From positions 1-47,656 of the forward strand of contig JAKLLB010000024.1 of the NCBI GenBank assembly GCA_023150345.1: a stretch of DNA of 47,656 nt, written 5' to 3'. Shown here in pieces: positions 22,881-46,401 of the stretch. The stretch comes from Aquabacterium sp. GTDB taxonomy: Bacteria > Pseudomonadota > Gammaproteobacteria > Burkholderiales > Burkholderiaceae_C. The notes under the pieces were generated by a model. The model had not been told where the DNA came from. It did no database searches and saw only the letters and a program-made list of their open reading frames with translations. Position 1 is the stretch's first letter. Each line of letters begins with the position of its first letter. A program made the translations under genes and the position numbers.

Positions 22881-22888
22881 TTTGGACG

Positions 22889-24456: not shown

Positions 24457-24468
24457 GGCCGTTGCAGT

Positions 24469-24635: not shown

Positions 24636-24702
24636 CCGCGACCATCGACGGAGCGCGGCCCGGCGGGGCGGCGACACATGCACCTGCCCCGGGACACGCC
24701 GA

Positions 24703-31414: not shown

Positions 31415-32407
31415 TCAGGGCAGGCCTTGCTGCGCGAGAAAGCGGTCGACGGCGTCGGAGTATTCGCCGGCGAGCCCGAGTTCCTGGTTGACCTCGCGGT
31501 GCGACAGCGACACGGGCACGACCTGGATGCGCCCACCCAGGGCCGCGGCGCGGCTGGCGTATTGCCGGTTGGCACTGCAGGCCGCTTCACGCTGGCTCGA
31601 GCACACCAGCAGGGTGGGCAATGGTGCGGCCTTCAGGCGGTGCAGTGGCGAGGCCTGGGCCCAGAAGGCGGGGTCCGCTGCGAACACGGTGTCGAAGAAG
31701 GCGTAGTGCGGTGCCTGCATGGCGCTCACCACATCGATGGCCGCGCTGTCCAGGCTCACGGTCGCCTGCCAGCGGCGGGCACCGGCGGCGCGCAGCAGGT
31801 CGTCGTCGGACGCCAGCAGCATGACCAGATGAGCACCGGCCGAGTGGCCCATCAGCACCAGCCGGTTGGCATCGGCGCCCCATTGCGAAGCACGGGCCTG
31901 GACGAGCGCCAGCGCACGCGCCACGTCGTCGGCCTGCTGCAGCGGGTTGGCCTTGGGCACCAGGCGGTAGTTGACCGAGACGAGCACATAGCCGCGCGGC
32001 AACCAGCGCGTGATCTTGTTGGCCAGCAGGCCGGCGTTGGACTTGTCGCCGATCATCCAGGCGCCACCGTGCACCAGCACGATCAGAGGCGAGCGGCTGG
32101 CGCCAGCCGGGATGTAGACGTCCAGACGCTGCGCGGGGTCGGTGCCGTATGCCAGATCGCGCTCCACGCGCGCGCCAGCGGGCAGGGTCACGATGCCGCC
32201 CGGGTCGTCGTCGTCGAACTCGCTGGCCCGCCGGCGCGTGCCGCTGGCGTCGGTGAGTTCACGCATTTGCGCGGCTTGAGCAGCGACCGTGCGCGCCACG
32301 GCACCGGTGGCGGCCGCTGCAGGGCGCATGGCGCCGGCGGCGACGCACACCAGCAAGAGCAACAACTGAGTCCAGCAACGTGCCTGGGGCAGCGACAGAT
32401 GGCGCAT
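31415..32407 (-). CDS. secreted alpha/beta hydrolase (carboxylesterase-like)
   Basis: The 330-residue protein has a hydrophobic N-terminal signal (about residues 13-34) and an esterase/lipase fold. The oxyanion motif HGGAW is at 113-117, the nucleophile elbow GHSAG at 187-191, and a candidate catalytic histidine near 306 (VSLSHREVNQEL). RLDVYIPAGAS before the HGG motif is typical of the BD-FAE/hormone-sensitive-lipase-like group. It lies 102 bases downstream of the PqqD-M50-HlyD gene on the same strand and may be the last member of that unit. The natural substrate is unknown. Confidence 0.82.
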   Translation of the reverse strand: MRHLSLPQARCWTQLLLLLVCVAAGAMRPAAAATGAVARTVAAQAAQMRELTDASGTRRRASEFDDDDPGGIVTLPAGARVERDLAYGTDPAQRLDVYIPAGASRSPLIVLVHGGAWMIGDKSNAGLLANKITRWLPRGYVLVSVNYRLVPKANPLQQADDVARALALVQARASQWGADANRLVLMGHSAGAHLVMLLASDDDLLRAAGARRWQATVSLDSAAIDVVSAMQAPHYAFFDTVFAADPAFWAQASPLHRLKAAPLPTLLVCSSQREAACSANRQYASRAAALGGRIQVVPVSLSHREVNQELGLAGEYSDAVDRFLAQQGLP

Positions 32408-32509
32408 CGGCGGGCTTCCTCGACGAGGCGGCCGCTGAAACGCAGCAGCCGCCCATCGGTATCGGCACCGCCGGCGCGAACTTGAGCCCGCGCCCGCGAA
32501 CCCCGCTGA

Positions 32510-34996
32510 TCAGGGAATCCAGGACCACACCTGCACGTTGAAGAATCGCATCAATGTGAGAGTGAAGGCCTTCCACACCGGCATGGTTTGGCCGCCGACC
32601 TTGGCATAGCCGCTCATGCCGTTGCGCAGCATGTCGTCCTTGTTGCGGATCGTGGCGATCACCTTGATCACGTTGCCGAACGGCTGCACCGTGACGTTGC
32701 GGTCGATCACCGTGACGGTGCCCTCGAACTCCATTTCGCTGAACGGGTTGGGCCGCGCGCGGATGGGCGAACCCACCTTGACGTAGGCGCTCTCCGGCTC
32801 CGGCACCTCGATCTCGGCGGTGACGAACTCGACGTTCTCGACGGCAGCGAACATCGCGCCGCGCTCGAGATAGGTATTGGTCTTCTGCTTGAGGTGCAGC
32901 GTGAGGACATTGCCGTCGAAAGGCATGCGCAACACCGTGCGGTCGATCTTCTTGCCGATCGCGTCGCGGTCCTCCTCCAACGCCTCGAGCTTGGCCTGCG
33001 CCGCGGCGATGTGGTCCTTGGTGGCGCCCGTGCGCGCCAGGTCGAGCGCAGCCTTCTTCTGCTCCACCTGGCGGGCGTCGATGTCGCGGGTGCGCCGCGC
33101 GGCGTCGAGCTCGTCGAACGCGATCACCTTGTCGGCATAGAGTTTTTCGTACCGTGGCACCCGGGCGTCGCTGTACTCGAGATGCTTCTGTGCCACCTCC
33201 AGTTCGCGCTGCGCCAGCGCCACTTCCTCGGGCTTGGGCCGGGCCTTCAGGTCGGCCACCACGGCCGCCTGCTCGGCCACCTTGGCCTCGGCCGTGGCCA
33301 GTTGCGACTTCAGGTCGATGGTCGACAGGCGCGCGATGACGGTGCCCTTGGCCACCTTCTCGCCGCCATCGAAGTAGACCGCCTCGACCAGGCCGGGAAC
33401 GTCGGTGGTCAGCATTTCCTGGCGGCCCGGGAAGATCTTGATGGCACCGCCCGGCTCGTAGGGATAGGGCAGGAACAGCAGGAACACCAGCACCACCAGG
33501 CCGGCGATGCGGGCATAGCTCCAGAACCCGCGGCTGGCCTTGGGTTCCTCGGGTTTCTCGCCGGCGGCCTCGGGCACGGCACGACGTCGCCAGCGCTCGA
33601 AGCGCTCGGCCCGGTCGTAGGCTTCCGAGATGAGGCGAAAGCGCTTGATCGTGCCGTTGATCAGCACCACCCCGAACACCAGCGCCAGCAGCACCGCCGC
33701 ACCGCCGATCTGCAGACCGCCGAAGAACATGCCCACCATGTAGACGGCCACGGCGATCAGCACATACGAATACACCACGGTGGCCAGCGCATAGCCCACC
33801 AGCAGGTTGTCTTCGGCCTCCTTGAAGGTGTCGCCCTTGAGCCGGCCCACCAGGGCCTTGTAGGCCTTGCCGCGCAGGTGCGGCTCGTTCATGAAGGTGG
33901 ACAGCAGTTGGTAGCAGCTGCCCTTGACCAGCGGGTTGCCGGAGACGAACAGCACATCGAGCGCCGTCAGCATGGCCACAGCGATGGCCATCTTGGGCAA
34001 CACGCCGTAGGCGTCGCGGTTGTTGTACCAAATCAGCATGCCCAGGCTGAACAGGAAACCGCGCGTGAGCAGTGGCGTGGCATGCAGCCACAGCTTCTCG
34101 CGTCGGGTCATCTGCTCGGCATGGTCGACACGGGCCACGAACCGCGGCAGGAAGGCCATGAAGATGGAAATGCCGATGGCCTTGACCGTGCCCCGGTACC
34201 AGTGCGCCACGGCCGCGATGACGAACGTGGCCGTGAGATTGATCGTGAACATGCTGAACACGACGTGCTGCAGCAACGTGGTGGCATCGTGCAGGCGGCG
34301 CACGTCCTTGTAGACGACCTCGGGGTAGCGGCCGCAGATCCAGAGCGAGGCCAGCAGCAGCAGCGGCAGCAGGTAGATGAGGTGGTGCGCCGGCCTCACC
34401 AGCGGCACCACCGCCTTGAGCATGGGGCGGGGATCGAACAAGACCCACATGCGCTTGGTGGTTCGGCGATCGAGCCCGTAGGCATCCTGGATGCCGGCCG
34501 GCAGGGTGGCATCCGGCGCCAGCTCGGGCTCGGCAGCGCCCACGCCGGCACCCGCATGCGCGGCCGCCGAGATGGGTGGTGCGGGTGCCGGTTGTGATTC
34601 GGCCGCTGCTCCAGGCATACCCTGGAACGACTTCACCTTCGGCTGGCCGTCTTCGGTGGAGTAGTGCTTGGTCAGATAGGGTGCGAGCAGCGGGTGGCGT
34701 GCGGCATCGTCGTCCAGCAGCTTCTGGTCGGCCAGCAGGGCGAACAGCGCGCGCACCTGATCGGGCGAGAGGTCGTTGCCGAAGCGGTCGTGAAAGACCG
34801 AAGCGAGCTTGGCGTAGTCCTGGCACCCGGGCAGCACCTCGAGCACGAAGAACTGCCAGGGCTCGAAGTCGTGGGTCTTGCCCAGCAGCTTGTCGCGGAT
34901 CAGGTAGCTGTGGCCGCCGTCCTTGGCGATCCGGAAGGCCTCCAGCCGGCGCGGCAGGTAGGCCGGCAGCGCCATTTTCTTGCTTTGTTCGCTCAT
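32510..34996 (-). CDS. PqqD / inactive M50 / HlyD fusion membrane exporter subunit
   Basis: This 828-residue protein has three parts. A PqqD-like peptide-binding winged helix occupies about residues 15-105. A multi-helix membrane region (about 200-450) follows the M50/site-2-protease layout. From about 495 a transmembrane helix leads to a HlyD adaptor with lipoyl-like halves (VPGLVEAVYFDGGEKVAKGT; RMPFDGNVLTLHLKQKTNTY) around a coiled coil. In M50 proteases HExxH and NPxxxxDG bind zinc; here the matching places read HWYRG (265-269) and NPLVKG (354-359), so the metal site is lost. The NodT-type outer-membrane factor gene lies 31 bases upstream. An exported substrate recognised by the PqqD part is inferred. 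Confidence 0.8.
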   Translation of the reverse strand: MSEQSKKMALPAYLPRRLEAFRIAKDGGHSYLIRDKLLGKTHDFEPWQFFVLEVLPGCQDYAKLASVFHDRFGNDLSPDQVRALFALLADQKLLDDDAARHPLLAPYLTKHYSTEDGQPKVKSFQGMPGAAAESQPAPAPPISAAAHAGAGVGAAEPELAPDATLPAGIQDAYGLDRRTTKRMWVLFDPRPMLKAVVPLVRPAHHLIYLLPLLLLASLWICGRYPEVVYKDVRRLHDATTLLQHVVFSMFTINLTATFVIAAVAHWYRGTVKAIGISIFMAFLPRFVARVDHAEQMTRREKLWLHATPLLTRGFLFSLGMLIWYNNRDAYGVLPKMAIAVAMLTALDVLFVSGNPLVKGSCYQLLSTFMNEPHLRGKAYKALVGRLKGDTFKEAEDNLLVGYALATVVYSYVLIAVAVYMVGMFFGGLQIGGAAVLLALVFGVVLINGTIKRFRLISEAYDRAERFERWRRRAVPEAAGEKPEEPKASRGFWSYARIAGLVVLVFLLFLPYPYEPGGAIKIFPGRQEMLTTDVPGLVEAVYFDGGEKVAKGTVIARLSTIDLKSQLATAEAKVAEQAAVVADLKARPKPEEVALAQRELEVAQKHLEYSDARVPRYEKLYADKVIAFDELDAARRTRDIDARQVEQKKAALDLARTGATKDHIAAAQAKLEALEEDRDAIGKKIDRTVLRMPFDGNVLTLHLKQKTNTYLERGAMFAAVENVEFVTAEIEVPEPESAYVKVGSPIRARPNPFSEMEFEGTVTVIDRNVTVQPFGNVIKVIATIRNKDDMLRNGMSGYAKVGGQTMPVWKAFTLTLMRFFNVQVWSWIP

Positions 34997-35027
34997 CGCG
35001 CGTGTTCCTGGGGCAATCTGACGGGGT

Positions 35028-36530
35028 TCATTTCGACGCCGGCGCTGGCGCTGCTAGGCCGGCCAGTTGTTCCGCACGGCCGGTCCAGCCACCGCCCATG
35101 GCGCGAAAGACCGCGACCAGGGCATCGAGCTGATTGGCTCGACTCTGCGTGTTCGTGATTTCGGACTGCAGCACGCGCTTCTCGGCATCCAGCACTTCGA
35201 GGTAGCTGCTGTAGCCGTTGTCGTAGCGGCGCCGTGCGAGCACCTCGGCCTCGCGGGCAGCGGCCAGCTGCAGGCGCTGCGCCTGCATCCGGTCGCCCAG
35301 CAGCCGGTGCTTGGCCAACGCGTCGTTGACTTCGCGGAACGCGGCCTGGATGCTGCGGCGGTAGGTCTCGACCAGTTCCGTGCGCCGCGCCTCGGTCTCG
35401 GCCACCTGGGCGCTGATGCGCCCGCCGTCGAACAGGTTGCCCGCCGCCTGGATGCCGTAGCTCCAGAAGTTGGCGGTCAGCTCGGGCAGGTTGGACAGGC
35501 GGGTAGAGGCGTATCCGGCCGCACCTGTGAGCGAAATGGTCGGGAAGTAGGCCGCACGTGCCACCCCGATGCGCGCGTTGGCCGCAACCAGGTCCTGCTC
35601 GGCGCGCCGGATGTCGGGTCGCTGCTCCAGGATCTCGGAGGGCAGTCCCGCCGGAATGCCGGGGACGACGAGCGCGTCGAACGACCGCCCGCGCCGTATG
35701 GCCGCGGGGGCTTTCCCGGCCAGGTACGACAGCTGGTGCTCGAGCACGGCCACCTCATGCTGCTTCAGCGGCAGCTCGGAACGCTTCTCCTCGTAGACCG
35801 ACTTGGCCGTTTCGACCTGCACCCACGAAATGGCACCACCCTCGGCCTTGGCGCGCTGCGACTTCCAGGCGGCTTCGCGGTTGGCAATCTCGCGCTGCAG
35901 CAGCGCGATCTGCTGATCGAGCTGCAGCAGCGTGAGGTAGCCGGTGACCACCTCGGTCACCAGCGTGAGCACCACGGCTTCGCGTTCCTCGCGCCGGGCC
36001 AGCAGATCAGCCAGCGCTGCCTCGTTGGAGCGGCGCACGCGGCCCCACAAGTCGAGCTCCCAGCTCGCCACGTACCCGGCTTCGTACTGATTGTTCGTCG
36101 GCGCGATGGTCGACGGCAATGGCACCGGCTTCTCCTGGCTCATCGTCAACCGCTGGCGCGCCGCGATGCCGTCGACCTGGGGATAGCGGGACGCCTTGGC
36201 CACCTGCACGCGAGCCTCGTACTGCTCGATGCGCGCCAGCGCGATTCGCAAGTCGGCGTTGCCAGCGAGCGTCTCGCGCACCAGGGCGTCGAGCGCTTCG
36301 TCACCGAACAGACGCCACCAGGCGTCCACCCGCGTCACGGCGCCGGGCGCATACGTCTCGCGCCACTGGGTTGGCGCGTCGACGTCCGGACGGCGGTAGT
36401 CGGGGCCCTGCGCGCAACCGGCCAGCGCTGCCAGTGTCAGCAGCACCAGGCCGCCGCTGCGGCGCCGCGCCACAGGCGCGCTGGCCCGCGGACCGAGTGC
36501 CCGGCAGATGAGTGGGAAAGGGTGGCTCAT
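35028..36530 (-). CDS. NodT/OprM-family outer-membrane efflux lipoprotein
   Basis: The 500-residue protein begins with a lipoprotein signal ending LTLAALAGC (Cys39), then AQGPDYRRPDVDAPTQWRE, the usual NodT/OprM start. Two TolC-type repeats follow, with DLRIALARIEQYEARVQVAK and SWELDLWGRVRRSNEAAL in the first half and EQRPDIRRAEQDLVAANARI and SYGIQAAGNLFDGGRISAQV in the second. It forms a trimeric channel through the outer membrane. Placed just upstream of the HlyD fusion, it completes an envelope-spanning export path. No inner-membrane RND or ABC pump is adjacent, so the membrane part of the fusion may play that role or recruit a pump elsewhere. Confidence 0.9.
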   Translation of the reverse strand: MSHPFPLICRALGPRASAPVARRRSGGLVLLTLAALAGCAQGPDYRRPDVDAPTQWRETYAPGAVTRVDAWWRLFGDEALDALVRETLAGNADLRIALARIEQYEARVQVAKASRYPQVDGIAARQRLTMSQEKPVPLPSTIAPTNNQYEAGYVASWELDLWGRVRRSNEAALADLLARREEREAVVLTLVTEVVTGYLTLLQLDQQIALLQREIANREAAWKSQRAKAEGGAISWVQVETAKSVYEEKRSELPLKQHEVAVLEHQLSYLAGKAPAAIRRGRSFDALVVPGIPAGLPSEILEQRPDIRRAEQDLVAANARIGVARAAYFPTISLTGAAGYASTRLSNLPELTANFWSYGIQAAGNLFDGGRISAQVAETEARRTELVETYRRSIQAAFREVNDALAKHRLLGDRMQAQRLQLAAAREAEVLARRRYDNGYSSYLEVLDAEKRVLQSEITNTQSRANQLDALVAVFRAMGGGWTGRAEQLAGLAAPAPASK

Positions 36531-36615
36531 GGGCGTGGCGTTCGAGGCGTGTCGAGTGTGCGCGTTGCGGTGGACCGATGGCGACCGGTACGGCAGGCAG
36601 CGTGAGCGTGCGGGT

Positions 36616-37035
36616 TCATTCGTCGGCAGGCCGGGCGGCCAGGTAGTCGAGTGCCTGGTCCTCGATCTCGCGCACCCGCACCAGCGTGCTCTGCAGTTCG
36701 GTGAGCACCGCCTCGAACCATTTGATCTGGTACTCGATCTGCTGGCGCTGCCAGACGATGTCTTCCAGCGGTGCATTGGCCGGCGGCCGCCCGTGCTCGT
36801 CGAACAGGAAGCGGATGCCCTCGCCCACCTGGATGTGGGTGTTCACGTGCGAGACCTGGCGCTCGACGAACTTCTTGATCTTCTTGGCCTTGAACTCCCG
36901 TATCACCGCCAGGCGCAGTGCGCGCTGGTGGGGCGTGAGATGGTCCAGGTCCGGGTGGCTGGTCACCGGATGGCCGTCGATCGGACCCAGGCGCTCGCGC
37001 AGCGGCTTGGGCGGCGGGGCGTGGTCGTCACTCAT
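36616..37035 (-). CDS. unknown 139-residue charged helical protein
   Basis: I do not recognise this protein. It starts MSDDHAPPPKPLRERLGPID, has a lysine-rich helix (REFKAKKIKKFVERQ), a middle segment VGEGIRFLFDEHGRPP, and an amphipathic C-terminal helix (IEYQIKWFEAVLTELQSTLV). It has no signal peptide, membrane segment or cysteine. It lies 22 bases behind the sulfotransferase gene and 85 bases before the outer-membrane factor gene, so it is probably cotranscribed. It could be a small accessory or structural protein of the export locus; size and composition do not look like a typical RiPP precursor. Confidence 0.7.
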   Translation of the reverse strand: MSDDHAPPPKPLRERLGPIDGHPVTSHPDLDHLTPHQRALRLAVIREFKAKKIKKFVERQVSHVNTHIQVGEGIRFLFDEHGRPPANAPLEDIVWQRQQIEYQIKWFEAVLTELQSTLVRVREIEDQALDYLAARPADE

Positions 37036-37057
37036 CGCACTATCCTGGTGGGCCGGT

Positions 37058-37966
37058 TCATTGATAGCCGAGCTCGCGCGCCAGTTCGATCACGCGTGGA
37101 TGCAGGGCGTGGCCGTCCTGCCGCCACGGAACGGGCTTGGTCAGCGAGGGAAACTTCACCTTGTGCGGGCGGAAGGTGGGGCCGCTGAGGAAGTTGGGGT
37201 CGTTGCCGAACAGCGCGTTGATCGGCCCGAAGCACGCGAACGGCGACCGTTCGGGATGCATCATCGCGTCGACCGCCTCGGCGTCATCGCGCAGCCCCGC
37301 CCAGCGGCAGATGGCCGCGAGCTGCTCGCGCGGATTCTCCATGATGTCCTCGCCGCGCACGCGCAGTTGCTGCGCCGGGGGCACCTCGTCCAGGAAGTTC
37401 AGGATGTTGATGTTGAGGTCGTGCCACGCCAGCGAGGGCTCGACGATCGCCCTGTCTTCGAGGAACTCGATCGAATTGACATAGAGCGCAAACGCGCCTT
37501 CGTTGAGGGACATCACCGACTTGCACTGGGCCACGGGATGGCGGATCAAGTGCAGAAACCGGGCCTCGGGAAATGCGCGGTACATCGCGCGCATGCGGCC
37601 GATGTCGATGGTGTACGACGGACTCTTCTCGACCGCCACCAGCGGGTGGATGCGCTCGACCAGTTCGCGATAGACCAGCGCCGTGCTGACCTCCTCGCGG
37701 GCGGCGGCCCAGTGCACCGCCATGCGGATGGTGGCTGCCGTCTGCTCGCCGCCGTAGACCTCGGCCACGGCGCGCAGCAGCCCCTGGCGGGTCTTGGCGT
37801 CGTTGCTCATCTCGTCGGACGTGCGGACCCACAGCTCCTTGAGCACTTCGACGTTGAACAGGCACAACTCGGGCAGGCCGAAGGCCTGCGGGTGCTGACC
37901 CAGCATGGCATTGATCAGCGAGGTATACGACCTCGGTGGGGCCAGCAGGAACAACGGAGCGGCCAT
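37058..37966 (-). CDS. PAPS-dependent sulfotransferase
   Basis: A 302-residue cytoplasmic sulfotransferase. The 5'-phosphosulfate loop is PPRSYTS at residues 10-16 and the 3'-phosphate motif is LIRHPVAQCKS at about 140-150; both are near canonical. VEKSPSYTIDIGRMRAMYRA precedes the second motif, as in the sulfotransferase family 3 (Sulfotransfer_3). It would move sulfate from PAPS to an OH or NH group of an unknown acceptor. Upstream is an alkaline-phosphatase-superfamily gene, downstream the export genes. The PAPS-forming cysD and cysNC and the PAP phosphatase cysQ lie within 5 kb, which supports active use of PAPS here. Confidence 0.87.
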   Translation of the reverse strand: MAAPLFLLAPPRSYTSLINAMLGQHPQAFGLPELCLFNVEVLKELWVRTSDEMSNDAKTRQGLLRAVAEVYGGEQTAATIRMAVHWAAAREEVSTALVYRELVERIHPLVAVEKSPSYTIDIGRMRAMYRAFPEARFLHLIRHPVAQCKSVMSLNEGAFALYVNSIEFLEDRAIVEPSLAWHDLNINILNFLDEVPPAQQLRVRGEDIMENPREQLAAICRWAGLRDDAEAVDAMMHPERSPFACFGPINALFGNDPNFLSGPTFRPHKVKFPSLTKPVPWRQDGHALHPRVIELARELGYQ

Positions 37967-38017
37967 CGGGGCAGGAGGGGTCTCGGACGACGGATAGGGA
38001 GGTTCGGACGCGACGGG

Positions 38018-38842
38018 CTACTTCACCCGGCCTTCGACATAGGGGATTTCGAAGCACTTCTCGTGCATGATGGGCCCGTGACCGAAGTAGCCTTCCTCAC
38101 CGAAGAGCTCGCCATGATCGGCCGTCACGATGAACCAGGTGTTGGGCGGCGCCTTCTCGTACAAGGTGCCGATCAGGCCGTCGATGTACTCGACGCACTT
38201 CACCTGCTGGGCCCGCAGCATGGCCAGTTGCTCGGGCTCGAACACCTGCTTGCCGCCGGCCACCGCCGTGTTGGGATCGGCGGCGATGCCCTTGACCGCG
38301 CCGTGCACGCCAGAGATGTGCGGCAGGTTCTCGCCCGACAGCATGTACGGGTAGTGCGTTTCGCCCAGGTTCAGGAAGTAGTACTGCGGCTCGTCGTCCG
38401 GGAACTCCATTTCCTGCACCATGCCTGCGAAGTGGTTGTGGTGCTCCATCAGCTTGTACTCGTCGAAGTGCTGGCTGATCAGCGTGTACTTGTTGAGCAC
38501 CGGCATCGAGACCTTGGCGATGGTGCGATAGCCCAGCTTGGACAACACCTTGGGCAGCGACAGCTCGGGCAGGAAGTTCTTGAACTCGATTTCGCCGCCG
38601 CCGATGCGCTCCTTCCACTGCAGGTATTCGCTCTTGTAGACCTCGGAGGCGAACACTTCCTTCGGGCTCGTGTGCGGCATCATGCCCATGGTGTAGACAT
38701 AGTGCGACGGCGCCGTCCAGGAGGCGTAGGCGTAGCGCCGCTCGGCGGTGCCCAGGCGATCGATGTGGGGCGTGCGCGCGGCCACGAAGGTGTCGTAGCG
38801 GCAGCTGTCCATCACGATGAAGACGATGTGGTTGAGAGTCAT
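38018..38842 (-). CDS. sulfatase-like protein of the alkaline phosphatase superfamily
   Basis: The 274-residue protein starts MTLNHIVFIVMDSCRYDTFV, the first metal-binding strand of the superfamily, and later has HYPYMLSGE, and FIVTADHGELFGEEGYFGHG with the DHG and GH metal ligands. The formylglycine motif C-x-P-S-R of true sulfatases is absent; the residue in nucleophile position is probably a threonine or serine in ASWTAPSH. It is short for the family (usually 400 or more), ending soon after the second metal site, so it may be a minimal phospho/sulfo-transferase or hydrolase. It is the first gene of the sulfotransferase-export unit, 51 bases before the sulfotransferase. Confidence 0.72.
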   Translation of the reverse strand: MTLNHIVFIVMDSCRYDTFVAARTPHIDRLGTAERRYAYASWTAPSHYVYTMGMMPHTSPKEVFASEVYKSEYLQWKERIGGGEIEFKNFLPELSLPKVLSKLGYRTIAKVSMPVLNKYTLISQHFDEYKLMEHHNHFAGMVQEMEFPDDEPQYYFLNLGETHYPYMLSGENLPHISGVHGAVKGIAADPNTAVAGGKQVFEPEQLAMLRAQQVKCVEYIDGLIGTLYEKAPPNTWFIVTADHGELFGEEGYFGHGPIMHEKCFEIPYVEGRVK

Positions 38843-39003
38843 GCGCAGATCCCGTTGAACATGGGTACGGCCCGGAGCGCCACCCCCCAAAGCCTGTCGA
38901 GTATGCCCGTGTGTGGCGACATTGCCGAGTCCGCGCAGCGTGCAAAGCGCACGCGCGGCTCCATGCAGACCGACACACAGCCCCCGCGTTCCCGGGGGTC
39001 CGG

Positions 39004-39022
39004 CGCCCCGCGGCGCGGGGCG
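39004..39022 (-). terminator. GC-rich hairpin downstream of cysQ
   Basis: CGCCCCGC and GCGGGGCG (39004-39011, 39015-39022) form an 8-bp stem with a three-base loop, six bases past the cysQ stop. No T run follows. The rest of the 186-bp gap to the sulfatase-like gene (38843-39028) probably holds that gene's promoter but shows no clear hexamers. Confidence 0.4.
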
Positions 39023-39028
39023 GTGCAC

Positions 39029-39826
39029 TCAGTCGGCAAGACCGCTGGCCACGAAGTGCGGGTTGTCGAGCCCCGGCTTGCCGTAGCGCAGGGGTGCGCC
39101 CTGCAGGTCGCACACGTACCCGCCGGCGGCCGCCAGCACGGCATGGCCGGCGGCGATGTCCCACTCCATGGTGCGACCCAGGCGCGGGTACAGGTCGGCC
39201 GCCCCGCGGGCCACCAGGCACAACTTGAGCGACGATCCCGCGTTCGTGGTGCTGGCCACGCGACGGCCGGCGAGGAACGCTTCGAGCGCCGCAGCATCGC
39301 CATGTGAGCGACTGGCCACCACCGTCAGGCCCTCGGCGGGTACGCGCCGGCACGCGATCGTCCGCCGGCCGTCGTCCGCTTCCATCCAGGCGCCATGCCC
39401 CAGGGCACCGGCATAGAGTTGCCCGCGCGGGCCCAGCGCCGGGGCCAGCACCACCCCCAGCACCGGCGCACCGCGCTCGATCAGGGCCACGTTGACGGTG
39501 AACTCGCCGTTGCGGCCGATGAACTCCTTGGTGCCGTCCAGCGGGTCGACCAGCCAGAAGCGCTCGCCGAGTTCGGGCACGCTGCCGGCCGCCACAGCCT
39601 CTTCGGCAACCACGGGAATGCCCGGCCAGTTCTGTTGCAGGCCAGCCACGATCACGGCCTCTGCGCGCTCGTCGGCCTCGGTTACCGGCGATGCATCGTC
39701 CTTGCCGCGGACTGCGAAGTCGGTCGCGTAGACCGACATCACCACATCACCTGCCTGCCGCACGATAGCGGCCAGTTGCTCGAGCCAGGCCGCATCAGCC
39801 ATAGGCGCCGTTTGCTGCGCGTTCAT
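39029..39826 (-). CDS. cysQ: 3'(2'),5'-bisphosphate nucleotidase CysQ
   Basis: The 265-residue enzyme removes the 3'-phosphate of PAP, the by-product of sulfotransferases, and can also act on PAPS. Inositol-monophosphatase-fold motifs are clear: VVAEEAVAAG, DPLDGTKEFIGRNGEF (D-P-L-D-G-T metal site) and MEWDIAAGHAVLAAAGGYVC. The chosen ATG at 39826 has AAGGA ahead of it; another ATG at 39844 has none. The gene is divergent from cysD with 200 bases between starts, so supply and disposal of the sulfate donor are placed back to back. Confidence 0.92.
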   Translation of the reverse strand: MNAQQTAPMADAAWLEQLAAIVRQAGDVVMSVYATDFAVRGKDDASPVTEADERAEAVIVAGLQQNWPGIPVVAEEAVAAGSVPELGERFWLVDPLDGTKEFIGRNGEFTVNVALIERGAPVLGVVLAPALGPRGQLYAGALGHGAWMEADDGRRTIACRRVPAEGLTVVASRSHGDAAALEAFLAGRRVASTTNAGSSLKLCLVARGAADLYPRLGRTMEWDIAAGHAVLAAAGGYVCDLQGAPLRYGKPGLDNPHFVASGLAD

Positions 39827-40026
39827 CGATCGCACATCCTTCAATCTAGGGGGGTGTCCGTTGACGGCTTCACGCTTTGCGGGTCACCGTCGAACCGGGG
39901 GTTAAGGCGGCGCGGATTGTGCGCCAGAATGCTCGCCTCTTTCCATCCCAGCGGTGCGTGCCGCAACGATGTGCCGCACGGCCCGCCCTGGGCACCGATG
40001 CATCGATCGGATCCGCTGTCCCGACC

Positions 40027-40938
40027 ATGATCGATCCCGTGCGACTGACCCACCTGCAGCGCCTAGAAGCCGAGAGCATCCACATCCTGCGCGAAGTGGT
40101 GGCCGAGTGCGAGAAGCCGGTGATGCTGTACTCCATCGGCAAGGACTCCGCCACGATGCTGCATCTGGCCAAGAAGGCGTTCTTTCCGTCACCGCCGCCG
40201 TTCCCGTTGCTGCACGTGGACACGACCTGGAAGTTCCGCGACATGTACGCGCTGCGCGACCGCATGGCGCGCGAGCTGGGGATGGAGTTGCTGGTCTACC
40301 GCAACCCGGAAGCCGAGGCCCTGGGCATCAACCCGTTCGAGCACGGCTCGCAGATCCACACCGACCTGTGGAAGACCCAAGGTCTGAAGCAGGCACTCGA
40401 CCATCACGGTTTCGACGCCGCCTTCGGCGGTGCCCGACGCGACGAAGAAAAGTCACGCGCCAAGGAGCGCATCTTCTCGTTTCGCTCGGCCCAGCACCGC
40501 TGGGACCCGAAGAGCCAGCGGCCCGAGCTCTGGCACCTGTACAACGCGCGCAAGCGCCAGGGCGAGTCGATCCGCGTGTTCCCGTTGTCGAACTGGACCG
40601 AGCTCGACATCTGGCAGTACATCTACCTCGAGAACATCCCGATCGTGCCGCTGTACTACGCAGCGGTGCGCCCAGTGGTGGAACGAGACGGCACGCTGAT
40701 CATGGTCGACGACGACCGCATGCCGCTGCGCCCGGGCGAGACACCGATGATGAAGAAGGTGCGCTTTCGCACCCTGGGCTGCTACCCGCTGACCGGCGCC
40801 ATCGAGTCCGAGGCCGACACCCTCACCGCGATCATCCAGGAGATGCTGCTCACCCGCACCAGCGAGCGCCAGGGCCGCATGATCGACCACGATGCGTCGG
40901 CGTCGATGGAGAAGAAGAAGCAAGAAGGATATTTTTGA
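40027..40938 (+). CDS. cysD: sulfate adenylyltransferase subunit 2
   Basis: The 303-residue small subunit of ATP sulfurylase, which makes APS from sulfate and ATP with CysN as GTPase partner. The PP-loop [20 protein letters not shown] is at about 40-60, and [20 protein letters not shown] and [16 protein letters not shown] are family signatures. The end EKKKQEGYF is the usual CysD/NodP C-terminus. The stop overlaps the ATG of a short repeat-encoded frame (TGATG). cysNC follows 165 bases later. Confidence 0.95.
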
Positions 40939-41102
40939 TGGCCCCCCACACTCACGTTCGTTCGCTGCCCCCCGAGGGGGCCCAGGCCTCCTTTGGGGCG
41001 GCCCGGCAGGAGTCCTCTGAAGCACGCCCCCACGCTCACGTTCGTTCGCTGCCCCCCGAGGGGGCCCAGGCCTCCTTTGGGGCGGCCCGGCAGGAGTCCT
41101 GA
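40938..41102 (+). other. 54-codon open frame made of the duplicated repeat
   Basis: This frame reads [20 protein letters not shown] and so on, with the same 24-residue segment twice. It starts in the cysD stop (TGATG) and ends two bases before the cysN ATG. It is the translation of an intergenic repeat type common in Burkholderiales, so a functional peptide is unlikely. It may nevertheless be translated and link cysD to cysN translation. Confidence 0.3.
40943..41100 (+). repeat. two direct copies of a 74-bp GC-rich intergenic repeat
   Basis: Copy 1 (40943-41016) and copy 2 (41027-41100) differ at one base (40950 A, 41034 G) and start 84 bases apart. Each contains GCCCCCCGAGGGGGC, an inverted repeat able to form a hairpin, and a second arm TTTGGGGCGGCCCGGCAGG. 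This is the REP-like sequence type found widely between genes of Comamonadaceae and relatives. It fills the gap between cysD and cysNC. Confidence 0.85.
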
Positions 41103-41103
41103 T

Positions 41104-43008
41104 ATGAGCCACGTCTCCGACCTCATCGCCACCGACATCGAGCAGTACCTGCACCAGCATGAGCGCAAGAGCCTGTTGCGCTTCATCACGTGCGGTTCGG
41201 TCGACGATGGCAAGAGCACGCTGATCGGGCGGTTGCTGTATGAATCGAAGATGCTGTTCGAGGATCAGCTCGCCGCTGTGGAGGCCGACTCGCGCAAGTG
41301 GGGCACGCAGGGTGGCGACATCGACTTCGCACTGCTGGTCGACGGGCTTGCTGCCGAGCGCGAGCAGGGCATCACCATCGATGTGGCCTATCGGTTCTTC
41401 AGCACCGACCGGCGCAAGTTCATCGTTGCCGACACGCCCGGCCATGAGCAGTACACGCGCAACATGGTCACCGGCGCATCGACGGCCGATGTCGCGGTGA
41501 TCCTGATCGACGCACGCAAGGGCGTCCTCACCCAGACACGACGGCACAGCTACCTGGTGTCGCTCATCGGCATCCGCAAGGTCGTCCTGGCCATCAACAA
41601 GATGGACCTGATGGACTACTCGGAGAAGGTGTACCGCCAGATCGAAGAGGACTACCGCGCCTTCGCCCAGAAGATCGGACTGGCCGACATCACCGCGATG
41701 CCGCTGTCCGCGCTCAAGGGCGACAACATGCTGGAACCCAGCTCGCGCATGGGCTGGTACCACGGCCCCACCTTGATGGGCTACCTGGAGACCGTCGAAC
41801 TCGACGAGACCCGCCAGCAGGCCGGGGTGCTGCGCGTGCCCGTGCAATGGGTGAACCGACCCAATCTGGACTTCCGCGGCTTTGCCGGCACCGTCGCCGG
41901 AGGCACCGTGCGGCCGGGCGATCGGGTCCGCGCCCAGCCATCGGGGCGCGAGAGCCGCGTGGCACGCATCGTCACCGCCGACGGCGATCTGCCACTGGCC
42001 GTGGCCGGACAGTCGATCACCCTGACGCTGGAAGACGAGATCGACATCTCGCGGGGCGACCTGATCTCTGCGGCCGCCGCGCCCGCGGAGGTGGCCGACC
42101 AGTTCGAGGCCACCATCGTCTGGATGGCCGACGAGCCCCTGCTGCCCGGCCGACCCTATCTGCTCAAGCTGGGCACGCGCACGGTGAATGCCACCGTCAC
42201 CGAGCCCAAGTACAAGGTCAACGTCAACACGCTCGAGCACCTGGCCGCCAAGAAGCTCGACCTCAACGAGATCGGCGTGTGCAACGTCGCCCTCGACCGC
42301 GTGGTGGCGTTCGACGCGTACACCGCCAACCGCGAGACGGGCGGCTTCATCCTGATCGACCGCCTGACCAACCACACGGTGGGCGCAGGCATGCTGCACT
42401 TTGCGCTGCGTCGTGCGCACAACATCCACCTGCAGCCGGTGGATGTCGACAAGGCCGCCCGTGCGCAGTCGCTGGGCCAGAAGCCGGCGGTGCTGTGGTT
42501 CACCGGCTTGTCGGGCGCAGGCAAGTCCACGATTGCCAACCTCGTCGAGAAGAAGCTGCATGCCTTGGGCAAGCACTGCTACTTGCTCGACGGCGACAAC
42601 ATCCGTCACGGCCTGAACCGCGACCTGGGTTTCACAGAGGCCGACCGGGTCGAAAACGTGCGCCGGGTGGCCGAGGTGGCACGGCTGATGGCCGATGCCG
42701 GATTGATCGTGCTCACCGCGTTCATCTCGCCCTTCCGAGCCGAGCGGGCGATGGCCCGCGCACTGGTCGCCGAGGGCGAATTCATCGAGATCCATGTCGA
42801 CACGCCCCTGGAGGTGGCCGAGACGCGCGATGTCAAGGGGCTGTATCGCAAGGCCCGTCGCGGCGAGCTCGTGAACTTCACCGGCATCGACTCGCCCTAT
42901 GAGGCCCCCGAATCGCCGGAGTTGCGCATCGACACCGTTCATCAATCGGCACAAGCCTGCGCCGATCAAGTGATCGCCTGCATGAACGCGCGTGGGCTGC
43001 TGGGCTGA
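41104..43008 (+). CDS. cysNC: CysN-CysC fusion: sulfate adenylyltransferase large subunit plus APS kinase
   Basis: The 634-residue protein joins an EF-Tu-like GTPase (CysN, about 20-440) to an APS kinase (CysC, about 455-634). GTPase motifs are [15 protein letters not shown] (31-45), [12 protein letters not shown] and NKMDLM. The kinase P-loop is [15 protein letters not shown] near 465-479, followed by [16 protein letters not shown] and [10 protein letters not shown]. It makes APS and then PAPS. Such fusions (NodQ, bacterial CysNC) go with use of PAPS by sulfotransferases as well as assimilation. The ATG has no strong ribosome site of its own, only AGGAG in repeat copy 2. Confidence 0.95.
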
Positions 43009-43038
43009 CGCGCGGCTGAGCAGTTAGAAGTCTGCACC

Positions 43039-43821
43039 ATGGACTGGATCAACCCCGTTGCCGGCTTCGTCGTCGGCCTGCTGGTGGGCATCACCGGCGT
43101 CGGAGGCGGCTCGCTGATGACGCCGCTGTTGGTGTTGGTATTCGGCATGGCGCCGGCGGCGGCTGTCGGTACCGACCTGTGGTTTGCGGCGATCACCAAG
43201 CTGGTCGGCGGCACGGTCCACCACCAGCGCGGCGGCGTCGACTGGCAGGTGGTGCGTCGGCTGTCACTCGGCAGCCTGCCGGCGGCGGTGCTCACGCTGG
43301 TGTGGTTGCATACCAGTGGGCTCGGGCCGGTCAAGCAAGGCCTCATCCTGCACATGCTGGGGGTGGTGCTGGTGCTCACGGCGCTGGCCATGCTGCTGAA
43401 GAAGCAATTGCACGCCGTGGGCCAGCGTCTGCGGTCCTCGGCGCCTGAGCGGTTCAAAGGCGTTCAACCGCCGCTGACCGTGCTGGCCGGCGCATTGCTC
43501 GGGTTCCTGGTCACCCTCACATCGGTCGGCGCCGGTGCCCTGGGCACGGTGATGCTGGTCTACCTCTATCCGTTCCGCATGACGCCGACGCGCCTCGTGG
43601 GAACCGACATCGTGCACGCCATACCGCTGACGATGGTGGCCGGCATGGGTCACCTGTGGATGGGCAACGTCGACCTGCCGCTGCTGGGCCAGTTGCTGCT
43701 GGGATCGATACCCGGCATCGTGATCGGCTCGCTCGTCGGTACCCGCACTTCGGAGTTGTTCCTGCGCCGCGCCATCGCCGCGGTGCTGGTGGCCGTCGGC
43801 GCCAAGCTGCTGCTGGCTTGA
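43039..43821 (+). CDS. TauE/SafE-family membrane permease
   Basis: A 260-residue membrane protein with about eight helices in two similar halves: VAGFVVGLLVGITGVGGGSL and LTVLAGALLGFLVTLTSVGA, each with the GxxxGxGGG-like loop of the TauE/SafE (COG0730) family. Members move sulfite, sulfoacetate or other anions across the inner membrane. It lies 30 bases downstream of cysNC on the same strand, so a role with sulfate, sulfite or a sulfonate is likely. Direction and substrate are not shown by the sequence. Confidence 0.85.
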   Translation: MDWINPVAGFVVGLLVGITGVGGGSLMTPLLVLVFGMAPAAAVGTDLWFAAITKLVGGTVHHQRGGVDWQVVRRLSLGSLPAAVLTLVWLHTSGLGPVKQGLILHMLGVVLVLTALAMLLKKQLHAVGQRLRSSAPERFKGVQPPLTVLAGALLGFLVTLTSVGAGALGTVMLVYLYPFRMTPTRLVGTDIVHAIPLTMVAGMGHLWMGNVDLPLLGQLLLGSIPGIVIGSLVGTRTSELFLRRAIAAVLVAVGAKLLLA

Positions 43822-43870: not shown

Positions 43871-45328
43871 CTAGGACGACACGTCCCCCAGGAACACCTC
43901 GCAGCCGCCGCGGGGATTGGGCACGTAGCGGGTGCCGCCCAACGGCATCACCTTGGGCCCGTAGGGGTTGGCTGTGCCCAGGAACAGGCCCCTGGGAGTG
44001 GACACGAGCGTGCGCAGGCCCATGTTGTAGGGGTTGTCCATGCCGTTGGTCGTGACTGGCACCCAGTTCTCGCCATCGAAGCTGCGGTAGAGATCGAACC
44101 CGGACTGCCGCTCGAGGATGCGCTGCGGGTCGACATGGTTGATCGCATTGGCGAACACCTGCGGCCAGTTGGCACGGTTGGCGTAGCCCAGGATCGAGCT
44201 CCACTCGAAGGTGCCCATATACAGCCAGCCTTCGTGCTCGCACATGCGCCAGAAGTAGCCGTTGAAGAAGTTGTCGAATCCCGGCAGGTAACCTGAGAGC
44301 GCCGGCTTCGGGCCTTCGGGGGTGTCGCGGCTGTCGCCCACGAGCAGGTCCCAGGAGCCGTCCGGTCGCACGCGGATCAGCTCGGGAGCCGCCGGCCCCA
44401 CCTTGTTCTGCCGGTCGATGCCACCACCCTGGATGCCGCTGCCGATGTAGAGCGCGTCCTTGAACGGCGTCATGCTCAGCACGCACTGGTTGAAGCGCCC
44501 GCGCCAAGCGCCCTGGTCGATCACCTTCTCCCAGTGGTAGGGCGCCTCGCCCTCACAGGTGGAACGCCAGACCTGATAGCCCGCCAGGTTGAACGTGCCC
44601 ACGTAGAGGTGGTCGCCGAATCCGACCATCTCGAACACGGTGAGGTTGCCGGCATCGCCGAAACCGAAGGCGCTGACCGGCTCCCACTGCCCGGCCAACG
44701 GATCGCGACTCTCGTACACCACCGAGTGAGCCGACACGTTCGGATTTCCACCCCGCGAACCTGCTGGCGTGGTGTAAAGCCGCCCCTTGAACGCGGCCAT
44801 GGTGCGGATGGTGGTGACTGGCAGCCCGTTGAGGCCGGGTTCGCAGGTCGGCGTGTAGGTGCGCCCATCGTCGGAGCGCAGGATCAGCGGGCCGGGCCCC
44901 CGTGCCGGCGACCAGGTGCTCACCAGGAGCACGGGTTCGCCGCCGCCGGGTGGATCCCAGGTGAGCATGCCGCGAAACCCGAGCTCGCGCGGTATGGGCT
45001 TGCCGTGGCTGCCGGTGATCATGGGCGACTTGAACACCCGCTCCCACTCGTCGCGCAAGGGGTCGTAGCGCCAGATCTCGGCGCGCATGTCCAGGTCGTA
45101 TGGGTCGGCCGGGCACTCCACGGGCCAGACGTCCATGCCGATCGGCAGGCGTGCCTTCATGAACGGGAAGTTGCCGCGCGTGGTGGCCACGTACAAGTGG
45201 CCCTTGAACCAGGCCATCGAGTGCGCATAGGCGTTCTGGCCATCGCCGAAACCGCCGTGTGCCACCAATCGGAAGTCGCTGCGGCGCAGGCCCGGATGCA
45301 CGCCCAGCCGGTTCGGGGTGCGGGTCAT
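43871..45328 (-). CDS. unknown beta-propeller-like protein
   Basis: This 485-residue protein has no family I can name but shows at least six repeats built on a hydrophobic strand, FKG/GD and HLY/RLY-G-T: SMAWFKGHLYVATTRG, TMAAFKGRLYTTPAGS, EMVGFGDHLYVGTFNL, SMTPFKDALYIGSGIQGG, MCEHEGWLYMGTFEWSS and LVSTPRGLFLGTANPYG. The pattern suggests a six- or seven-bladed propeller. No signal peptide is seen at the N-terminus MTRTPNRLGVHPGLRRSDFR. It follows the alpha/beta hydrolase by five bases and is the last gene of a three-gene minus-strand unit. A scaffold or ligand-binding role is a guess. Confidence 0.72.
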   Translation of the reverse strand: MTRTPNRLGVHPGLRRSDFRLVAHGGFGDGQNAYAHSMAWFKGHLYVATTRGNFPFMKARLPIGMDVWPVECPADPYDLDMRAEIWRYDPLRDEWERVFKSPMITGSHGKPIPRELGFRGMLTWDPPGGGEPVLLVSTWSPARGPGPLILRSDDGRTYTPTCEPGLNGLPVTTIRTMAAFKGRLYTTPAGSRGGNPNVSAHSVVYESRDPLAGQWEPVSAFGFGDAGNLTVFEMVGFGDHLYVGTFNLAGYQVWRSTCEGEAPYHWEKVIDQGAWRGRFNQCVLSMTPFKDALYIGSGIQGGGIDRQNKVGPAAPELIRVRPDGSWDLLVGDSRDTPEGPKPALSGYLPGFDNFFNGYFWRMCEHEGWLYMGTFEWSSILGYANRANWPQVFANAINHVDPQRILERQSGFDLYRSFDGENWVPVTTNGMDNPYNMGLRTLVSTPRGLFLGTANPYGPKVMPLGGTRYVPNPRGGCEVFLGDVSS

Positions 45329-45333
45329 GGCTT

Positions 45334-46401
45334 CTAGCCCGCTACAGGAGCGGCAACGGCGCGAATGAACGTCGCCAGCGTGTCCTTGGCTTCATCCTCG
45401 CCGTCGAACGGCCCCACCTGCGCCTGCTCGCGGGTCATGAAGAACCAATGGCCGCCCGTCTCGTAAACGCGATCGCTGCGGAAGTGACTGCGACGCGCTT
45501 CGCCGGCACGCACCTTGGGTCTGGTCGCGAACTCGCCACCCCAGAAACGCTCGCATGCGTGGACGACTTCGAGCGGCCGCGTGGTCGGGAAGAAGTGACC
45601 CGCGCGGTGCACCCGGCGGAACTCCGCATGCGGCCAGACATCGAGCAGTTCCTTGCCCGTGAGTCGGGCCTGGGACTGGTCGCCGTACATTGCCAGGATC
45701 GGAAACGTCAGCCGGCGCAGTTCGCTCAGGCACAGGCCGTCGTCACCCATGAGTTCGTCGCGGGCGCGGGTGGTGTCCATCAGCTTGAGCCATTGCGCCG
45801 CCGTGCGCGACCCGCACTGCCCCGCCAACGGACGCACCAGCTCCTCGAGCTCGGGTGGCACGGCGGCATTGGCCATCTGCAGGTGCGACACCTCGGTGAG
45901 CAGCTTGTAGCCGAAGAAGGGATCGTGTGCGTCGAGATTCAGCCCGGCGCGGTCGACGATGGCCTGGATCTGGGCACCGTGGCCCCAGCTCTCGGGTCGC
46001 ACGCTCTTGCGCACTGCCGACAAATGGGTGTCGCACAGCACCATGCTTGCCACCCGTTGGGGCGCAATCTTGGCGAAATTCAGCGCCACCACGCCGCCGT
46101 AGCTGTGGGTCAGGAAGTGCGCCCGTTGAATGCCCAGGGCGTCGAGCAGGCCCTGGAGGTCGCGGGCGAGGTTGTCTGGCCGGTAGCCGCCGGCGGTCAT
46201 CTCGGAGCGGCCGTGTCCGCGCAGGTCGAACAAGGTCACCCGGAATCGCCGCTGCGACAGCCGCGTGGCGTACTGGAAGTACCAGAACGCCATGTTGGTG
46301 GCCAAGCCGTGCACCATCACCAGGTCTTCATGACCCTGTCCGTCCTGGCATTCGAGCTGGACGTAGTTCAGGCGTGCACCGTTGACCACTACTGCCGGCA
46401 C
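45334..46401 (-). CDS. alpha/beta hydrolase with C-terminal DUF6316-like domain
   Basis: The 355-residue protein begins at GTG 46401, with GGAG from the previous gene's end as ribosome site. An alpha/beta hydrolase domain (1-270) has LVMVHGLATNMAFW, LFDLRGHGRSEMTAGGYRPD, the nucleophile elbow THSYGG, and RVHRAGHFFPTTRP with the catalytic histidine. The last 50 residues (FRSDRVYETGGHWFFMTREQ, then GPFDGEDEAKDTL) resemble the small DUF6316 module, which is normally a free-standing protein of unknown function. The gene lies four bases behind a phosphodiesterase gene and five before the propeller gene. Confidence 0.78.
   Translation of the reverse strand: MPAVVVNGARLNYVQLECQDGQGHEDLVMVHGLATNMAFWYFQYATRLSQRRFRVTLFDLRGHGRSEMTAGGYRPDNLARDLQGLLDALGIQRAHFLTHSYGGVVALNFAKIAPQRVASMVLCDTHLSAVRKSVRPESWGHGAQIQAIVDRAGLNLDAHDPFFGYKLLTEVSHLQMANAAVPPELEELVRPLAGQCGSRTAAQWLKLMDTTRARDELMGDDGLCLSELRRLTFPILAMYGDQSQARLTGKELLDVWPHAEFRRVHRAGHFFPTTRPLEVVHACERFWGGEFATRPKVRAGEARRSHFRSDRVYETGGHWFFMTREQAQVGPFDGEDEAKDTLATFIRAVAAPVAG

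Follow-up and report, generated by a model that had tools for sequence, protein, structure and literature searches.

What a sulfotransferase does beside genes for its own sulfo donor and parts of an exporter is the question raised by positions 31,415 to 43,821 of a contig of Aquabacterium sp. (GenBank JAKLLB010000024.1), the whole 47,656 bases of which are referred to here as the window. A first-pass annotation had likened the locus, with its sulfotransferase (ST-I), to rhizobial NodPQ/NodH, in which a CysD and a CysNC fusion stand beside a sulfotransferase, and had proposed that a sulfated product leaves the cell. We conclude that the region is probably the tailoring, export and 3'-phosphoadenosine 5'-phosphosulfate (PAPS) supply half of a cluster of the 'secondary lipid' type, with a polyketide synthase (PKS) resembling polyunsaturated fatty acid (PUFA) synthases on two other contigs. 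The cluster is found in scattered, distantly related bacteria and is apparently undescribed.

A polyketide synthase cluster probably divided between contigs

The window is the entire contig C166 of an assembly that is 94% complete in 251 contigs, and its right edge is therefore an assembly break, not a biological edge. The block had been thought to end at 43,821, but three further minus-strand genes of the same cluster continue up to the contig end at 47,656, and the comparison with NodPQH leaves out what makes the product, a PKS resembling PUFA synthases that the contig end cuts off. When the second PKS protein of a relative (PKS2, with ketosynthase (KS), acyltransferase (AT), dehydratase (DH) and phosphopantetheinyl transferase (PPTase) domains) was used as query on the source genome, strong matches were found on two contigs. 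C48 (6216 bases) carries the DH tail of the first protein, PKS1, a complete KS-AT-DH-PPTase protein and, at its right end, the first half of a gene for an acyl carrier protein (ACP); C26 (8342 bases) carries the head of PKS1, with NMO, KS and AT domains, and runs off its left end. In relatives with this form of the cluster the ACP gene is followed by that of a phosphodiesterase (PDE), the gene cut by the right edge of the window. From this synteny we infer that the likely order is C26, a gap, C48, a short gap and the reversed window. Pfam matches in relatives, checked on C48 and C26, cover KS, AT, ACP, ketoreductase (KR), DH, enoylreductase (ER) and PPTase; the ACP/KR part of the source genome's own PKS1 falls in the assembly gap. 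Active-site motifs of KS and AT are present in both PKS1 and PKS2, and the DH of PKS2 lacks the HxxxGxxxxP motif. On C26 (L062:5784-8341) the PKS1 head adjoins genes for an adenosine-deaminase-family protein and a PnrA-like ABC substrate-binding protein, and the cluster border may lie near here. In Lysobacter sedimenti (L033:4069-18576) PKS1 is split into NMO-KS-AT and ACP-KR-DH proteins, with ST-I, a small protein, NodT and HlyD between them.

Scanning a genome collection with ST-I as query gave 35 loci that span Burkholderiales, Neptuniibacter, Pseudomonas, Lysobacter, Tritonibacter and several metagenome-assembled genomes (MAGs) of other groups, some of whose labels (Verrucomicrobia, Brocadia, Nitrosomonas) may come from mis-binned contigs. 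Neighbourhoods were counted in 26 genomes chosen for length, nine loci (L021, L023, L025, L040, L041, L043, L046, L047 and L055) being left out. The genomes are not independent, including as they do four Neptuniibacter and four Pseudomonas; the sulfotransferase is present in all 26 by construction, and a gene counted as absent is one not present in the stretches read, whatever the rest of the genome may hold. A PKS2 homologue occurs in 26 of the 26, as does a β-propeller protein, while a DUF6316-type α/β hydrolase, a HlyD fusion protein and an ACP, free or fused, are each found in 25 and a conserved 139-residue protein in 24. Less regular are the PDE (19), an alkaline-phosphatase (AP) superfamily protein (17) and the NodT channel (16), and the PAPS genes are scarcer still (CysD and CysNC 10, CysQ 7, TauE 1). 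The constant core of the cluster is thus PKS, ACP, hydrolase, propeller, HlyD and sulfotransferase, and since CysNC, CysQ and TauE lie near the sulfotransferase in so few relatives, PAPS supply is an accessory to it. A BD-FAE-type hydrolase homologue is present in 12 of the 26 clusters and a different esterase, of the PHB type, in 13; in seven clusters a DUF11-repeat protein (L032:6614-9106 and similar) has the AP-superfamily gene or the sulfotransferase gene nearby, and none was seen in the window.

Within the source family a close ST-I homologue was found in 4 of 299 genomes, source included (a fifth hit is more distant), and the four congeners of the source that were drawn all lack it, a patchiness that suggests a transferred cluster. 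The propeller, used alone as an independent query, picked out exactly the same four genomes. Of 369 genomes drawn from across the class, four besides the source have it, at 47–51% identity, all with a sulfotransferase on the same contig (26–45% identity) that adjoins the propeller in G648, G412 and G349 (the last weak, 44 bits) and lies ~9 kb away in G633, the fullest cluster. The reverse search, with ST-I in the same 369 genomes, matched 10 including the source, and the six that lack the propeller hold distant matches of 28–35%. G412 and a Competibacteraceae MAG (L116, L117, L054) have several sulfotransferase copies, some directly beside propeller genes, which suggests that sulfotransferase and propeller are partners. 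Plasmid spread of the cluster was considered and rejected, since a search of 72,556 plasmid records for the propeller, with a limit of E ≤ 1e-5, gave no match.

Gene content of the window

All of the genes named in the first-pass annotation were found by Pfam and NCBIfam matches where it had placed them, and cysQ and cysD diverge as it had stated; its list omits the conserved gene at 36616–37035. Gene starts were checked, and the features of the cluster in the window are as follows.

31415..32407, minus strand: α/β hydrolase of the BD-FAE type, with an apparent N-terminal signal peptide (by eye); PF20434, 7.5e-28
32510..34996, minus strand: membrane protein of 828 residues with a HlyD-type barrel-sandwich C-terminus (the HlyD fusion); HlyD_D23, 7.1e-12
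35028..36530, minus strand: NodT-type outer-membrane channel; TIGR01845, 356.7 bits, cut-off 210
36616..37035, minus strand: conserved 139-residue protein, between the sulfotransferase and NodT genes; homologues in 24 of 26 clusters
37058..37966, minus strand: PAPS-dependent sulfotransferase ST-I; PF13469, 6.7e-29
38018..38842, minus strand: AP-superfamily hydrolase or transferase with an apparent Thr nucleophile; PF00884, 1.1e-8
39029..39826, minus strand: CysQ, 3'(2'),5'-bisphosphate nucleotidase, for removal of 3'-phosphoadenosine 5'-phosphate (PAP); TIGR01331, 280.6 bits, cut-off 228.8
39827..40026, no strand: divergent region between cysQ and cysD, from the reading-frame positions
40027..40938, plus strand: CysD, small subunit of sulfate adenylyltransferase; PRK12563, 558.8 bits, cut-off 413, and TIGR02039 above its cut-off
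40943..41100, no strand: direct repeat of 74 nt, two copies 99% alike at a spacing of 84, occupying the cysD–cysNC gap
41104..43008, plus strand: CysNC fusion of the GTPase subunit and adenosine 5'-phosphosulfate (APS) kinase; PRK05506, 1075.9 bits, cut-off 715; APS kinase domain 3.3e-69
43039..43821, plus strand: TauE/SafE permease; PF01925, 5.4e-45
43871..45328, minus strand: conserved β-propeller protein with a Kelch-like fold, from a structure model; in 26 of 26 clusters
45334..46401, minus strand: α/β hydrolase with a DUF6316 tail and a GTG start; PF00561, PF19837
46406..47656, minus strand: type I phosphodiesterase/nucleotide pyrophosphatase family protein (the PDE), cut by the contig end; PF01663, 1.3e-16

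The open reading frame of the NodT channel begins at 36776 and is over-long; starting from the ATG at 36530 gives 500 residues. The window PDE lacks ~117 N-terminal residues and is 74% identical to residues 118–532 of the homologue in L026. The 139-residue protein matched nothing in Pfam or NCBIfam. No repeats of at least 14 nt were found in the cysQ/cysD divergent region. The 74-nt repeat contains CCCCCGAGGGGGC, a core found at just these two sites of the window with up to one mismatch allowed. No RNA family at the gathering score and no tRNA were found in the window. The stretch from 21822 to 27555, which has no relation to the sulfotransferase cluster, encodes a TonB-dependent receptor next to a LysR regulator, together with a D-Ala-D-Ala dipeptidase and an LD-carboxypeptidase, and may serve the recycling of murein peptides.

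ST-I is related to polyketide synthase sulfotransferases

ST-I carries the stretches PPRSYTSL and RHP...S, which we take to be the two PAPS motifs, in agreement with the first-pass description. Searched against all solved chains, it finds the sulfotransferase domains of CurM (4gbm, 4.3e-21) and the olefin synthase OLS (4gox, 8.5e-18), the next match being at 0.0038; a profile of 26 ST-I members finds the same two at 5.3e-32 and 6.6e-31, with the next at 1.7e-7. The ST-I structure model (pLDDT 90.2) superimposes on CurM and OLS with query-normalised TM-scores of 0.75 and 0.71, the others among the 50 matches listed reaching at most 0.56. The source genome has one other PF13469 protein, a tetratricopeptide-repeat sulfotransferase (TPR-ST; L010:3003-4568 on C219) related to tyrosylprotein sulfotransferases; used as a control it matched these and, with a limit of E ≤ 0.1, gave no match to CurM or OLS. 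The nearest homology of ST-I, in sequence and in fold, is thus to the CurM/OLS activating sulfotransferases, and that of the control is not. The window ST-I is free-standing, and the placing of sulfotransferase, ACP and thioesterase in one polypeptide is not seen in it.

A DPNFL motif is common to CurM, OLS and 30 of 32 ST-I proteins, and 34 of the 90 near-invariant ST-I columns are identical in both CurM and OLS; the alignment omits duplicate or fragmentary rows from L017, L019, L021, L047 and L055 and retains just the sulfotransferase part of the L026 row. The only three matches of ST-I in the 72,556 plasmid records are two proteins annotated as PKS and one adenylation-domain protein resembling non-ribosomal peptide synthetases (NRPS), and of eight distant matching places in the class-wide search five lie inside open frames of more than 2000 codons. 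The adenylation-domain protein, from plasmid pRvVAT039a of Agrobacterium vitis (L124, NZ_AP023281.1 329937-346779), has an embedded sulfotransferase domain 31% identical to ST-I; annotated cysD and cysN genes lie ~2–3 kb off, with ectB, a DMT transporter and an α/β hydrolase near.

In seven of the 26 clusters (two Ideonella, one Lysobacter and four Neptuniibacter) a second sulfotransferase, ST-II, is fused behind an ACP in one open frame, examples being L030:13870-15165 (Ideonella), L022:706-2037 (Neptuniibacter) and L070:6715-8007 (Lysobacter). All seven ST-II group on the CurM/OLS side of the tree, and the one that was searched matches OLS (4gox) at 1.3e-55 and CurM at 6e-55; none of the seven has the DPNFL motif. 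A check of the whole genome, made for the source alone, found no ST-II there. In the stretches read, the seven ST-II clusters lack both the PDE and the AP-superfamily protein, and the other 19 have the PDE and no ACP-sulfotransferase, so that PDE and ST-II are mutually exclusive in 26 of 26 clusters. This exchange suggests alternative chemistries at the chain end.

Kinship with CurM and OLS, together with the ACP-fused second enzyme, makes an acyl-ACP of the PUFA-like synthase the likeliest substrate. ST-I most likely sulfonates the chain of the synthase, and β-sulfonation of a hydroxyacyl-ACP is its predicted activity.

PAPS supply

The assembly contains a single match to APS kinase (PF01583), which is the CysC part of the window CysNC. 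As the first-pass annotation had stated, cysH and cysI lie outside the window: PF01507 matches CysD alone there and PF01077 matches nothing, the other matches to these families being on other contigs. A second cysDN set, which that annotation had proposed to look for, is present on contig C11 together with cysH, and the window cysDNC is not the only such set in the genome. C11 carries CysD, a kinase-less CysN, CysH, a sulfite/nitrite-reductase-like gene, a uroporphyrinogen methyltransferase and another TauE; at identities of 46% (CysD), 42% (CysN) and 49% (TauE), the two sets are not recent copies of each other. The C11 CysH has the CC...GCxxC cysteines; it barely passes the APS reductase model TIGR02055 (235.5 against 235.3 bits), fails the PAPS reductase model TIGR02057 (144.4 against 254.2 bits) and clears two generic models of phosphoadenylyl-sulfate reductase, PRK02090 and TIGR00434, as well. 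The same cysteines are found in 22 of the 23 relatives with a CysH match, the 23rd being cut by a contig end. The reductase-like gene of C11 (L006:4402-6710) scores below the NCBIfam cut-offs and is apparently split over two frames, by sequencing error or decay; a further NIR_SIR gene lies on contig C183.

Because a separate CysH-CysD-CysN set with an APS-type CysH stands on another contig, we consider, from knowledge of the families, that assimilation probably proceeds via APS and that the PAPS made from the window genes is meant for sulfo transfer. The window thus holds a dedicated PAPS cassette, with CysD, CysN and APS kinase beside the sulfotransferase and the other ATP sulfurylase elsewhere in the genome. 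Among the 26 relatives some APS kinase match is present in 25 whole genomes, one of them weak (G315, E 3.7e-5). TauE probably goes with the cysDNC block; it was rejected as a constant component of the cluster.

Putative release and export proteins

In the α/β hydrolase with the DUF6316 tail Ser105, Asp129 and His274 are present in 16 of 16 homologues; Asp129 is the β6 Asp, and the usual β7 acid position varies between Asp, Glu and Gln. The CurM thioesterase uses a β6 acid. From these residues the hydrolase is a candidate thioesterase or release enzyme. The propeller has no Pfam or NCBIfam family match, and its model (pLDDT 88.7) retrieves generic β-propellers alone with Foldseek. The residue that appears to be the nucleophile of the AP-superfamily protein is Thr in 18 of 18 homologues, and a role as a formylglycine sulfatase was rejected on this ground. 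PDB profile searches with the PDE, the AP-superfamily protein and the hydrolase gave weak or generic matches.

The HlyD fusion had been described as a PqqD-M50-HlyD protein. The HlyD part holds; Pfam finds no PqqD or M50 domain at E ≤ 0.1 and gives the membrane part no assignment, and there is a weak NCBIfam match to a daptide protease (E 0.00069). HExxH is absent from all 21 homologues, so that the middle of the protein is at most, and perhaps is, a pseudo-M50 membrane domain. Of a tripartite exporter the adaptor (HlyD) and the outer-membrane channel (NodT) are present, and we infer that the product leaves through them. The proposal that a sulfotransferase, its own PAPS synthesis and a likely exporter are brought together in one biosynthetic locus is supported by these results.

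Proposed working of the cluster

PKS1, with an ER-like NMO domain followed by KS, AT, ACP, KR and DH, and PKS2, with KS, AT, a degenerate DH and PPTase, would build a partly unsaturated, hydroxylated long chain and pass it to the discrete ACP. CysD and CysNC would make PAPS and CysQ would clear PAP, while ST-I would sulfonate a hydroxyl, most likely the β-hydroxyl, of the ACP-bound or just released chain. The α/β hydrolase, propeller, PDE and AP-superfamily protein may then finish and release the product, which would exit through the HlyD fusion and the NodT channel.

Several observations weigh against this assignment. The linkage of the contigs rests on synteny only, and in an assembly of this completeness and fragmentation a second APS kinase could be missing from the data. 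ST-I forms its own long branch apart from CurM and OLS, which makes it unsafe to transfer their substrate to it. CysDNC and CysQ are missing near the sulfotransferase in most relatives, a result that the first-pass annotation had itself named as telling against its reading; of the neighbourhood comparison that it suggested, the pairing of HlyD fusion and sulfotransferase stands (25 of 26) and the pairing with CysNC (10 of 26) and CysQ (7 of 26) does not. Partial PKS1 proteins fall below the PfaA model TIGR02813 (1010 bits), the best, a partial protein of L033, reaching 820.1 bits. The ACP region of all four Pseudomonas PKS1 checked, by pattern only, shows one ACP-like serine motif and not tandem ACPs; two of the four have a further ACP-like match inside the KS. 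No solved thioesterase stood out as close to the hydrolase in the PDB searches, and no ABC, RND or other energised pump was seen among the genes mapped, relatives' genes being not all annotated.

The fate of the sulfo group

If the cluster is as proposed, the chance that the sulfo group acts as a leaving group comes close to even, that it is retained is a little under this, and some other fate is improbable. In CurM and OLS the sulfotransferase sulfonates a β-hydroxyacyl-ACP, and release by the thioesterase with loss of CO2 and sulfate yields a terminal alkene, according to the available portion of PMC3903477. By analogy ST-I, with ST-II where present, would sulfonate the β-hydroxyacyl-ACP, the hydrolase would be the thioesterase, and decarboxylation with loss of sulfate would leave a terminal alkene or polyene. 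The kinship of ST-I to CurM and OLS in sequence and fold, the shared DPNFL motif, the ACP fusions in seven clusters and the Ser, β6 Asp and His of the hydrolase beside the PKS all fit this traceless use of sulfate. Yet the hydrolase resembles no solved thioesterase closely, a hydrocarbon would hardly need such an exporter, and the two sulfotransferases of seven clusters, with DPNFL lacking from every ST-II, are left unexplained. Taken over all readings we hold this one tentatively, at somewhat less than an even chance.

Alternatively, ST-I would sulfate the polyketide lipid once it is complete or almost so, and HlyD and NodT would export the resulting anionic amphiphile, a reading that we regard as possible, though shy of probable. 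The adipostatin cluster, as far as the available text of PMC12135136 describes it, provides a proven precedent in AdpST, with a PAPS cassette in a PKS cluster and a retained sulfate. Seven clusters have ST-I as well as an ACP-sulfotransferase, and because the latter is a separate enzyme that groups with CurM and OLS, a different job is left for ST-I; the near-constant HlyD fusion also favours retention. It is countered by the nearest solved kin of ST-I, which use sulfate as a leaving group in the same portion of PMC3903477, and by the lack of PAPS genes near the sulfotransferase in 16 of 26 clusters. The sulfotransferase-bearing NRPS of Agrobacterium vitis also has cysD and cysN nearby, so a PAPS cassette need not mean retention. 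The sulfated, exported product of the first-pass annotation therefore survives as one of two readings.

The remaining explanations are both very improbable and were rejected. CysD, CysN and TauE are typical assimilation genes, and the reductase-like gene of C11 is apparently split, as might suit a sulfate assimilation locus with unrelated neighbours; but C11 has its own APS-type CysH, CysD and kinase-less CysN, C183 carries another NIR_SIR gene, the window locus contains neither cysH nor cysI, and cysDNC is linked to the PKS cluster in 10 of 26 genomes covering several genera. Sulfation of an exported saccharide or lipo-oligosaccharide in the manner of NodPQH is suggested by the arrangement of CysD, CysNC and sulfotransferase, but the constant partners are PKS genes, ST-I is nearest, among the solved chains, to the PKS sulfotransferases, and the genes mapped include no recognisable sugar-polymer glycosyltransferase; nor was any nodulation gene recognised in the window frames scanned, a scan that does not cover all of 16.9–21.8 kb.

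Comparison with known systems

The closest general likeness is to the Pfa-type secondary lipid clusters, which share a KS-AT-ACP-KR/DH protein, an NMO-type ER, a PPTase and a patchy spread over distant taxa. In the available text of Shulse and Allen 2011 (PMC3098273), 20 types of PUFA-like clusters are distinguished, 14 of them without a characterised product, and tandem ACPs are usual but not absolute. The word sulfotransferase appears nowhere in that text and no type is described there with one; the present cluster may overlap with its uncharacterised Type O (Dinoroseobacter, Parvularcula, Gloeobacter). Here, in contrast, the ER is fused to PKS1 and the PPTase to PKS2, one ACP-like motif is present in the four PKS1 checked, and sulfotransferase, propeller, PDE and PAPS genes lie inside the cluster. 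No word starting with 'sulf' occurs in PMC13291983, a 2026 survey of hybrid PUFA-synthase clusters.

With the CurM and OLS modules, so far as described in the accessible part of PMC3903477, the cluster shares a PAPS sulfotransferase that accompanies a PKS, has the same fold and is nearest to theirs in sequence and, in seven clusters, an ACP-sulfotransferase fusion; it differs in that ST-I stands free and forms a divergent branch, the hydrolase is a protein of its own and the synthase is PUFA-like rather than a modular PKS loaded by a fatty acyl-AMP ligase (FAAL). The adp cluster likewise brings together PKS, sulfotransferase and dedicated PAPS cassette, but in the available text of PMC12135136 it is a five-gene Streptomyces operon without an exporter, with a type III PKS and separate genes for APS kinase and large subunit.

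Two further systems are comparable in part. Compared with NodPQ/NodH, PKS genes stand in place of the chitin-oligosaccharide genes. Heterocyst glycolipid synthesis combines a PUFA-like PKS lipid with export by DevBCA-TolC and so shares with the present cluster a membrane-fusion adaptor and an outer-membrane channel; here a sulfotransferase is present and no ABC transporter was seen among the genes mapped. Among the papers listed from the open-licence literature no description of such a cluster was found, a limited negative, as most subscription papers fall outside the search.

Implications

At its most specific, the proposal is one of horizontally spread PUFA-synthase-like clusters outside the cyanobacteria in which a free-standing sulfotransferase, in some lineages with an ACP-fused one, would activate the chain, sulfate would be eliminated, possibly with the propeller as partner, and a polyunsaturated terminal-alkene lipid would be exported. 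As a whole this is doubtful, and we put it forward as a speculation; if it is true, the exchange of PDE and AP-superfamily protein for the ACP-sulfotransferase marks two alternative end-group chemistries. More generally, the two cluster forms provide a natural comparison for the roles of end-group enzymes, and the genes are present in cultured strains, for example of Rubrivivax gelatinosus and Ideonella; R. gelatinosus DSM 1709 has the complete set on a single contig. The cluster offers a direct test of sulfate as a lasting head group against sulfate as a leaving group, and hints at a class of lipid-like products in bacteria, apparently not yet described, whose making involves a polyketide-type sulfotransferase.

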